From Saccoglossus kowalevskii (taxonomy: Eukaryota; Hemichordata; Enteropneusta; Harrimaniidae), in NCBI RefSeq assembly GCF_000003605.2, contig NW_003133346.1, forward strand, positions 787,672 through 813,003: DNA of 25,332 nucleotides, in the 5' to 3' direction. Positions 1-21,425 of the stretch are shown here, piece by piece. The translations under genes and the position numbers were made by a program. The notes below the pieces were generated by a model. It saw only the letters and a list, made by a program, of their open reading frames with translations. It had not been told where the DNA came from and made no database searches. Position 1 is the stretch's first letter. The number at the start of each line of letters is the position of its first letter.

Positions 1-738
1 ACTGAAAGGGAATGTCTTTTTTGGACAAAAAACACATCAATACAAGATTATGTGTGCAAGGTTAGATTTATAGAACGTACATGACTGCTTAATTCTGTAT
101 TTTTTTTTAATAATCATGTCGCATGTGAAATGCAGGAGACATTTTAGTTCGCCCATTTCTTGTTTACCGATCTTGAACTTTTTGTCTGGAATGCGATACA
201 GACAAAGATTAAATTTTACTGGTAACAACCAAGAGGCTTGAATCAGGAAGGCTTGGCTATTTTAAACTTCGTGAATAACATTCTTTTCAAGCGTAGACTT
301 TATTCGAGTCTAATAAACGTAAGTGAAATGTATTTTACAACAATTCGTATACAGCAAGTTTTATGCTTTTCGACTTCACAGTGAAACATTTTTAGCATCA
401 TATTTGAAATGGCGCGATCGATACAAGATGTCGGACAGGAAATTGGGTCTGTAAAAATGTTTGTAGGTTCAGTTAGGCAATGTGTGGACCAAAACATCGC
501 CCAATATTTGAAACATCGCTGATGGGCGGGGTTTAGGATGGGCGGGGTATCAGCCGAATCCGGTAAATAATTTAAACACAAATTTTGAAAAGAGTGTTCA
601 GTTTATAGTACATGCAAGAGTTCAATCTGTTTAGTGGGATTTAGAGCTTACAGTACGGGGTTTTTAAAAATAGTGTTTCGATTTGGTAGTTAGGTGCATG
701 AATGTAGCATTATTTGACAGCCAAACATTGAGACAAAT
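1..738. other. Unassigned DNA, presumably inside an IDH1 intron
   Basis: No coding, RNA or mobile element recognised. It is placed in the intron only because IDH1 exons after residue 138 were not found anywhere to the right of it. Around 530-550 there is a short duplicated motif, GATGGGCGGGGT and GGATGGGCGGGGTAT. Confidence 0.5.
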
Positions 739-975
739 CAGGTTGCACTCTTTATAATTTTAATCAAAATGTGATCACATTGTAACACTTCGTTTACTTG
801 GCGTCTTTACTACAAACTACGAGGACAAGAAAGCCTGATCGTGCCCGCCGTCCGTGTCAGTGTTTCAGATTCCGATGTAATATTGGTTATGACAAACTAT
901 AATTGTCACAACAGACCCTACCAGAAGGGAACGTCACTCAGCGATGATTAATCTCAAATAATCATAAAGGAAATT

Positions 976-1963
976 GTGGAGAGTGGTGGTAATATGAATA
1001 CCGACGAGGTACTGAGAGCAGTGTTCCCTGCAGTAGGGCGTAAGTTTTCAATAACCGCAGCCGGGGTCCGAAAAGTATGGCTGAGATACGTACGAACAAG
1101 TTCGACAAAACCATCAGTTTCGAATAGGGGGAGACCCACCAAATTACTGCATGGAAATTAAACATTTCTCAAAGTTGAAGCTCTTAAGCGGATAGGCCGT
1201 CAATCACTTAACGCGAGATGCAGGAGAGACTTCAAGAAGTATTGGCAACAAACGTGTCTACGCTTTCCAACGCTGTTCGCCACAGATTTACAGGTGGAGA
1301 CTGGACATGGAAGAGATTAAATACTCCAGCCACAAAAAGATTCACCGAACGAAATATGATTTACACTCGAGAATTTATTGATGAAATGCGTGTTTTAGAT
1401 CAGCATCGTTTAAAATACATGGATGCAAGTGGCTTCAATGTTTCGGTTGCTAATCCTAAATACGGACATTTGTTAATTTGGACTCCGCGTATTGAAATCG
1501 TGCGCCATCGTAGGACACCAAATGTCACGTTGAATATCGGGGTGTGATACATGCGAACACTTTGGATAGAGCGTCAAACTCATTATGTGAGTTTTATTGA
1601 GGACTGCACCACAGCAATAACAGTTATTGGAGAACCAGCTTTACGAGCTGGCGATATTTTAATTGTCGACAATTGTCCAACGCACCACGTCGAGGTGGCG
1701 GATGACATCATGTACTTCGCCTGTGGCTATATCGACAAGGGATCGGCGTGATGTTTTTGCCAACATACTCTCCTCATCTCAACCCAGTAGAGAATGTTTT
1801 CACCAAGTTGAAAACGTTATTCCAACGATTTCATATGCGGACACTGGCATGGGAAAACCTTCATTTCGCAATCTACAATGCAATTCGCCAGGTAACCATA
1901 GCTGACATTGAGAGATACTTCCGGAATGTTGGTTATTTACAGATATACAGATGTAACCGATAG
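976..1963 (+). pseudogene. Tc1/mariner-type (DDE_3) transposase, broken
   Basis: Would cut and join transposon ends. Several consecutive frames are needed to read it. 976-1161 gives an N-terminal DNA-binding part ending in NRGRPTKLL; 1218-1547 holds the first catalytic Asp in YMDASGFN and a segment ending in RRTPNVTLN; after a TGA at 1545-1547 the same frame continues (1551-1751) to the second Asp in VDNCPTHH; after another shift, 1748-1963 gives LPTYSPHLNPVENVF with the catalytic Glu. The distance from the second Asp (1668-1670) to the Glu (1790-1792) is 119 nt, about 39-40 codons including a frameshift. At least one internal stop and two frameshifts make it non-functional. The stop at 1961-1963 probably marks the original C-terminus. 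Confidence 0.85.
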
Positions 1964-1996
1964 TGAAATTATTCTGCAACTCAAACCAAACCCAAC

Positions 1997-2033
1997 GGTT
2001 CTTTTCAGGGCCACAACATCCTCCAAAAAGAGA
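1997..2033 (+). promoter_or_regulatory. Histone-type mRNA 3' end: stem-loop plus downstream element
   Basis: GGTTCT (1997-2002), loop TTTC (2003-2006) and AGGGCC (2007-2012) form a six-pair stem with two T.G wobbles and a four-base loop, matching the metazoan histone consensus. The flanks also fit (CCAAC before, ACAAC after). Eleven bases further on, CAAAAAGAGA (2024-2033) matches the purine-rich element that pairs with U7 snRNA. No histone coding sequence precedes it. Instead the transposase stop lies 33 nt upstream, a spacing usual for histone genes. It may be a captured histone 3' UTR or part of the transposon itself; the wobbles suggest decay from a GGCCCT/AGGGCC stem. Confidence 0.7.
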
Positions 2034-2308
2034 TAATACTTTAAATTTACAAAAAATGTCCTTTTTATTTTATTGATTCTTCACTATTGTCACACAAATG
2101 AAACAAATGTGGGGTAACAAAACCAGTTTTCTTGAAAAAAAACGAGGGAGAAATTTGACTGAACAAACTGTGTTCATTAAAATTTGATGTAGTGTAGAGG
2201 ATATTTTTTCATGAAAATTTTATTAATATTTATTTTCACTATACTGTATTATCATTTTTTATCATTTTTATTTTGTTCTGAGATTGTTTTATTTTTACTG
2301 ACTGCTAT

Positions 2309-2333
2309 CATAGACCGTCTAAAAGGGTCTATG
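2309..2333. repeat. Hairpin CATAGACC / GGTCTATG
   Basis: Perfect 8-bp inverted repeat around a 9-nt loop (GTCTAAAAG), inside the 3' part of the transposon. Its arms and loop resemble the larger palindrome at 21806-21834. Confidence 0.55.
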
Positions 2334-2467
2334 CTGCTATTTAGGCGACATAATAAAAAAAAGTGATAAAAAATAAAAATATTTTCATCAACCAAAAATA
2401 TTAGCCCGTACACTACCGGTACATCTCATTGTGATCAGATTGTCACATTTGATTTAGAGTGCTACTT

Positions 2468-9081
<6,614 letters not shown>

Positions 9082-9332: not shown

Positions 9333-19146
<9,814 letters not shown>

Positions 19147-20428: not shown

Positions 20429-21425
20429 CTGTGTCTCCTAGTTACATATCTGTGTTTCCCAATTATGTGGCTGTGTTTTCCAATTATGTGGCTGTGTTTC
20501 CCAATTATGTGGCTGTGTTTCCCAATTATGTGGCTGTGTTTCCCAATTATGTGGCTGTGTTTCCCAATTATGTGGCTGTGTTTCCCAATTATGTGGCTGT
20601 GTTTCCCAATTATGTGGCTGTGTTTCCCAATTATGTGGCTGTGTTTCCCAATTATGTAGCTGTGTTTTCCGATTATGTGGCTGTGTTTTCCAATTATGCG
20701 GCTGTGTTTCACCATTATGCGGCTGTGTTTTCCAATTATGTGGCTGTGTTTTCCAATTATGTGGCTGTGTTTTCCAATTATGTGGCTGTGTTTTCCAATT
20801 ATGTGGCCGTGTTTCCCAATTATGCGGCCGTGTTTCCCAATTATGTGGCTGTTTTTCAGTATTATGTGGCTGTTTCCCAATTATGTGGCTGTGTTTTCCA
20901 ATTATGTGGCCGTGTTTTCCCAATTATGTGGCTGTCTTTCCCAATTATGTGGCTGTGTTTTCCAATTATGTGGCTGTGTTTCCCAATTATGCGGCTGTGT
21001 TTCACTATTATGTGGCTGTGTTTACCAATTATGTGGGTGTTTCCCAATTATGTGGCTGTGTTTCCCAATTATGTGGTCGTGTTTCCCAATTATGTGGTTG
21101 TGTTTCCCAATTATGTGGCTGTGTTTCCCAATTACGTGGCCGTGTTTCCCAATTATGTGGCTGTTCCCCAATTATGTGGCCGTGTTTCCCAATTATGTGG
21201 CTGTGTTTCCCAATTATGTGGCTGTGTTTTCCAATTATGTGGCCGTGTTTTCCAATTATGTGGCTGTCTTTCCCAATTATGTGGCTGTCTTTCCCAATTG
21301 TGTGGCTGTGTTTTCCAATTATGTGGCTGTGTTTCACAATTATGTGGCAGTGTTTCACCATTATGTGGCTGTGTTTCACAATTATGTGGCAGTGTTTCAC
21401 AATTATGTGGCTGTTTTTCCAGTTT
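20429..21425 (+). repeat. 21-bp minisatellite, about 46 copies
   Basis: Unit CTGTGTTTCCCAATTATGTGG, with CCC/TCC and GGCT/GGCC variants; the first ~10 units are almost identical and the later ones diverge. The period is a multiple of three and the unit lacks stops in five of six frames. Long artificial open frames result (FPNYVAV, CFPIMWL, HIIGKHS, PHNWETQ repeats). It begins about 60 bp downstream of the CPSF3 poly(A) signal. Confidence 0.97.

Follow-up and report, generated by a model that had tools for sequence, protein, structure and literature searches.

Outside replication-dependent histone genes, histone 3′ ends are considered to be practically absent. In the processing of histone pre-mRNA, SLBP binds the stem-loop, U7 binds the downstream element, and CPSF73 cuts after ACCA. 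Transposons of the Tc1/mariner type have, as far as we know, ordinary poly(A) ends. The whole stretch of DNA analyzed here, 25,332 nucleotides in length (the window), contains a broken element of this type, designated family F1. It shares with Tc1/mariner the DDE_3-type transposase, as does a second family (F2), and the short terminal repeats with TA ends; the nearest solved structure is that of Sleeping Beauty (5cr4, E 0.005). It differs from them by a complete histone 3′ signal following the transposase stop. Compared with the Rfam family RF00032 (Histone3), stem, loop, flanks, spacing, and downstream element are the same as in the host histone genes, whereas the signal follows a transposase or another repeat ORF herein and a histone in RF00032. 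Both the transposons and the signal are of known kinds; for their combination, a histone stem-loop within a transposon, no report was found in the titles and abstract openings of a mostly non-subscription literature.

The histone-type 3′ end of the F1 element

The inverted repeats of the F1 element are 30 nt long and 87% identical, and its only Pfam match is DDE_3, obtained with one of five pieces (1706–1963, E 1.1e-8). The first-pass annotation had placed a stem-loop with its flanks, and CAAAAAGAGA 11 nt downstream, between these repeats and 33 nt behind the transposase stop; letters, coordinates, and the recounted spacer all agree with this description (Table 1). In a cmscan of the whole window on both strands against 4227 families, Histone3 was the sole Rfam match at E ≤5 (1992–2037, + strand, 23.8 bits, E 0.012), with a score below the gathering threshold of the family (34 bits). 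The architecture of RF00032 is present, with a 6-bp stem, a 4-nt loop, an A-rich 5′ flank, and an ACC-type 3′ flank. The purine-rich downstream element of histone-type mRNA 3′ ends follows about 11 nt 3′ of the stem; among 19 host histone rows, which represent 16 distinct sites, most have the identical element. Aligned with five host histone ends, all six pairs of the window stem form, two of them as G–U.

Table 1. Coordinates of the features of the window.
Feature	Position	Strand	Remarks
Broken Tc1/mariner-type element, family F1	654–2606	+	inverted repeats; second copy C4320
Left terminal inverted repeat	654–683	+	repeat search
Right terminal inverted repeat	2577–2606	-	repeat search
Broken transposase	1212–1963	+	pieces 1212–1547, 1548–1751, 1706–1963; frame changes/stops
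Transposase stop TAG	1961–1963	+	ends last transposase piece
Region alignable with host histone 3′ UTRs	1982–2033	+	92% over 52 bp versus three histone loci
Histone-type stem-loop	1997–2012	+	6-bp stem with two G–U pairs, TTTC loop
Stem strands and loop	GGTTCT 1997–2002, TTTC 2003–2006, AGGGCC 2007–2012		read from sequence
Stem-loop flanks			5′ CCAAC, 3′ ACAAC; read from sequence
Histone downstream element (U7-type) CAAAAAGAGA	2024–2033	+	11 nt 3′ of stem
Intron-bearing CPSF73-like gene	10843–19000		three exon pieces with Pfam matches; extent by eye

The genome searched for further copies comprises 572 Mb in 4830 contigs. A second F1 copy lies on C4320 in other surroundings, and its pieces are 91 to 94% identical to the window. 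It sits at a TA site, with TA at both ends, while the left end of the window copy is slightly altered. As in the window, 33 nt separate its stop codon from its stem-loop; most of its downstream element has been lost. That the signal belongs to the transposon is hence borne out by a copy at another site, and also by transposase lineages whose DNA is otherwise unalignable. The expectation of a stem-loop at the same place in all copies holds for C4320, but not for five internally deleted F1-kin loci that retain the right end without a stem-loop. Three of these (C1358, C2264, and C4725) share the left 840 to 860 bp and the right 110 bp of the element, two (C2950 and C2916) share less of the left part, and all five have in common an alternative middle stretch devoid of the stem-loop. 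Four further loci (C4555, C1343:552226, C2716, and C1742) are left-end fragments and uninformative in this respect. A shorter F1 derivative (L035, L036, L037, and L040) has spread to several sites; in it, a shared stretch of 157 to 161 bp replaces both the stem-loop and the end of the transposase.

Transposase lineages and other repeats carrying the signal

Protein searches with the 85-aa transposase end piece and with the F2 protein gave 15 and 42 matches, respectively. Within this genome, the stem-loop is carried by 13 copies that belong to five transposase lineages (F1, F2, F3, F5, and F6); in the matched parts, these transposases are 31 to 44% identical to that of the window or of F2. Histone3 was detected by cmscan in nine of 16 sources (L034 and L046 being the same place, and L045 the window) and then in two of 20. 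The Rfam model thus recovers ten copies (L045, L034, L047, L048, L053, L055, L057, L059, L073, and L075), four of them above the gathering score (L047 and L048, 40.8; L053, 39.6; L073, 35.8), but not the degenerate stem-loops of C4505, C166, and C513, which were recognized by eye or regular expression. Since four relatives reach the gathering score, the transposon group carries RF00032 elements, of which the window copy is a weak one.

In the transposon copies, the signal lies on the transposase strand. The stem begins 19 to 33 nt behind the stop in 11 copies (by script) and, by a manual count, 52 nt behind it in C1007; the stop codon of C513 is altered. The F1 and F2 proteins are about 42% identical, whereas their DNA is alignable only over the 46 to 57 bp of the signal (E 1e-5). 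The spacing between stem-loop and downstream element is gap-free across the lineages, and this spacing and the core are kept next to lineage-specific letters, such as the F2 spacer CTAAATATTC and AAGAGAGA in F6. The loop of F3 is UUUU, which also occurs in one host histone row. F2 combines DDE_3 with a paired-box–like N terminus (PF00292, 8e-7); a search for its terminal inverted repeats found none. The stem-loop is absent from nine relatives with readable ends (C3473, C3324, C4410, C3895, C3574, C2160, C4661, C1219, and C452). C1550 and C2345 show a degenerate stem-loop–like stretch. No relative in viral contigs was confirmed.

The compensatory stem changes anticipated by the first-pass annotation did not materialize: none of the six pairs is changed on both sides, and only C–G to U–G changes and losses occur, with no covariation among 15 distinct rows. 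The argument hence rests on position, orientation, and recurrence rather than on covariation. A covariance model (R1) was set aside, as it had been built on an alignment with uninformative flanks.

The signal extends to several jumping-gene families rather than the single one first noted. The exact stem-loop pattern GGYYCTTTTCAGRRCCAC occurs at 111 genome sites, and its reversed control at none. Among 100 of the 111 sites listed, seven are known transposon copies, 22 lie on histone-cluster contigs (partly read), 11 fall outside the classification, and 60, chosen outside known histone clusters, were classified from 130 nt upstream. These 60 comprise 32 sites in repeat cluster Q1 and four each in Q2, Q3, and Q4 (44 in repeat clusters), two H2B genes, one F5 copy (L154), one F6 copy (L104), and 12 unassigned sites. 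F3-type loops are missed because the pattern admits only TTTC. Because the clusters rest on blastn comparisons of about 120 nt upstream of the stem-loop, different kinds of element may be combined in Q1. An H1 label, based on a loose lysine motif, was overridden for three sites: L104 matches F6, L114 clusters with Q1, and L136 is left unassigned.

One copy of each cluster was read past the stem-loop. In the Q1 copy, the stem-loop lies 27 nt behind the stop of a broken HIRAN ORF (PF08797, 7e-11, for a peptide assembled across frames), and CCAAAAAGAGAACTACTGT comes after it; in the Q3 copy, 31 nt separate the stem-loop from the stop of an ORF with an acidic end, and the stem-loop is succeeded by CAAAAAGAGAACTACCGT (both distances counted by hand). 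Judged by eye, the Q3 ORF may be pogo-like; its 82-aa end piece has no Pfam match. In the Q2 and Q4 copies, the stem-loop continues into an A-rich element and ACCGT. As scattered repeats, Q1 to Q4 are putatively mobile. Q1, represented by C1492:168252–168750 and 31 sites among L106 to L161, is the largest set of stem-loops outside histone clusters; these stem-loops lie behind a scattered repeat.

Likeness to host histone ends and the number of gains

An 80-bp query with the window signal gave 40 genome matches, two of which are transposon copies, whereas 38 cover only 45 to 57 bp of the signal. The best matches reach 92% identity across 52 bp and 94% across 47 bp. All gene-adjacent loci read are histone genes, namely H4 with the ending GFGG (L003–L006, L008, and L028) and H2B with KYTSSK (L033). 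The host histone ends mostly have the form AAACCAAAC-GGCCCTTTTCAGGGCC-ACCACATCCTCCAAAAAGAGAACTACCGT (19 rows, 16 distinct sites). This likeness suggests that the window signal was derived from host histone 3′ UTRs, and the transfer probably ran from histone to transposon. Because the likeness extends beyond the cleavage site, the genomic signal would have been copied rather than a reverse-transcribed mature histone mRNA. The first-pass annotation had named capture of a histone 3′ UTR as an alternative; this holds for the origin of the signal, but the captured piece is carried within the element and does not merely flank this one copy.

Upstream of the stem-loop, often by about 11 nt, a hairpin of ≥5 bp was observed in eight of 17 histone rows (seven of 16 distinct sites; 1.4 of 17 expected). 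Such a hairpin also occurs within the 40 nt examined in 13 of 29 other selected rows, including one H2B row (four expected), and is absent from the H4 genes read and from the window.

It is scarcely credible that the signal is a chance resemblance or that the window copy was inserted beside a histone gene. The window match alone lies below the curated Rfam score and, with many windows scanned, would not exclude chance. The 111 pattern matches versus none for the reversed pattern and the same-place signal inside the second element copy do exclude it; this control and this copy likewise rule out insertion beside a histone gene, and no histone match was found among the window pieces scanned, which cover part of the window. 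Hence, the signal of the window is confirmed as a genuine histone-type 3′ end signal. Whether it was gained once or repeatedly was addressed with a transposase tree of 27 rows, from which C3245 (<45 residues) was dropped and four further matches of the F2 protein with scanned 3′ flanks (C4340, C1210:336319, C3049, and the second C3792 copy) were left out; C1550, C2345, C2391, C4223, and C3792 were unlabeled for the stem-loop. On this tree, which has gappy rows (those of F3 are 25–28% filled) and long branches, the stem-loop label changes five times, four of them forced by well-supported branches, and only two of 500 shuffles were as low. An arrangement of the stem-loop rows as a single clade, that is, on one side of a branch, was rejected (AU p 2e-142). 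Because the lineages do not form one clade, repeated capture and retention are favored. A common ancestor with the stem-loop, which some lineages then lost, is an unlikely source: the clustering of the label would suit it, as the changes may be losses, and so would the lineage-specific letters of F2 and F6, which speak of long separate histories. Against it stand the rejected arrangement, the stem-loop–less lines nested within (C3473/C3324 beside F3, and C2160/C4661 beside C1007), and the same signal behind repeats outside this transposase family (the Q1 HIRAN ORF and Q3). Several captures, or transfers between elements, followed by long retention, hence fit better than one ancestral gain.

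The ends might also have been gained by insertion into or recombination with histone repeats and stayed idle, the mRNAs ending at poly(A) sites. Histone genes are a multi-copy target, and copies without the stem-loop were amplified too; from the nine relatives and five deleted copies that lack it, the signal is not needed by all. AATAAA or ATTAAA is present within 600 nt downstream of the stem-loop in nine of the 12 copies examined, so that poly(A) ends are possible. An idle signal is nonetheless quite improbable, since the signal always lies on the sense strand directly behind the stop, is found again in many families of repeats, and is conserved between F1 and F2 where the remaining DNA is not. 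Conservation within a family says little herein because the copies are dead.

Putative processing of the transposase message

The explanation that we regard as probable combines a captured and retained histone end with histone-style processing and an S-phase transposase. DNA transposons would have taken a terminal piece of about 50 bp from host histone genes, placed it behind the transposase stop, and retained it. The captured piece would consist of an A-rich leader, the stem-loop, a spacer, and the U7-type element, often ACTACCGT. The transposase pre-mRNA would then be cut after the stem-loop by SLBP, the U7 snRNP, and CPSF73, yielding an SLBP-bound mRNA without poly(A) whose synthesis and translation would fall mainly into S phase. 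Given the established processing of histone pre-mRNA, a transcribed ORF with an intact signal behind it can be expected to undergo such processing. With such an mRNA, the enzyme would appear at a time when newly copied DNA can serve as target and as a template for repair. That the signal is used, that the mRNA lacks poly(A), that expression is coupled to S phase, and that the element benefits are predictions from the sequence; the benefit may lie in S-phase timing, in export and translation of an intronless mRNA, or in dispensing with a poly(A) site.

The host encodes the RNA-binding domain of SLBP (PF15247) in two neighboring exons (51.2 and 33.8 bits). For U7 snRNA (RF00066), no match was obtained by a search whose controls also gave 0 of 14. 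The first-pass annotation had recognized CPSF73 in the same window; a CPSF73-like gene is encoded there, with RMMBL and Beta-Casp above the cut-off and Lactamase_B just below it; this proximity is probably a coincidence.

We lean slightly toward a broader reading, in which the histone 3′ end would be a shared and repeatedly captured end of mobile elements (Tc1/mariner, HIRAN-bearing, and pogo-like), whose mRNAs would lack poly(A), be bound by SLBP, and be restricted to S phase, thus coupling transposition to replication. Such ends might also let transposon RNA escape handling that depends on poly(A) or on introns. If the explanation is true, a known host pathway would tie transposase production to S phase, the export and translation of transposon mRNAs without poly(A) would be explained, and poly(A)-selected RNA-seq would overlook such mRNAs. 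The replication timing of a cut-and-paste element would thereby become directly testable.

Two further features of the window were noted by eye: an ORF piece at 7090 to 7410 with a motif reminiscent of the polyprotein end of non-LTR retrotransposons, and a long tandem array at 20450 to 21425 with a unit of about 21 bp (CCCAATTATGTGGCTGTGTTT).
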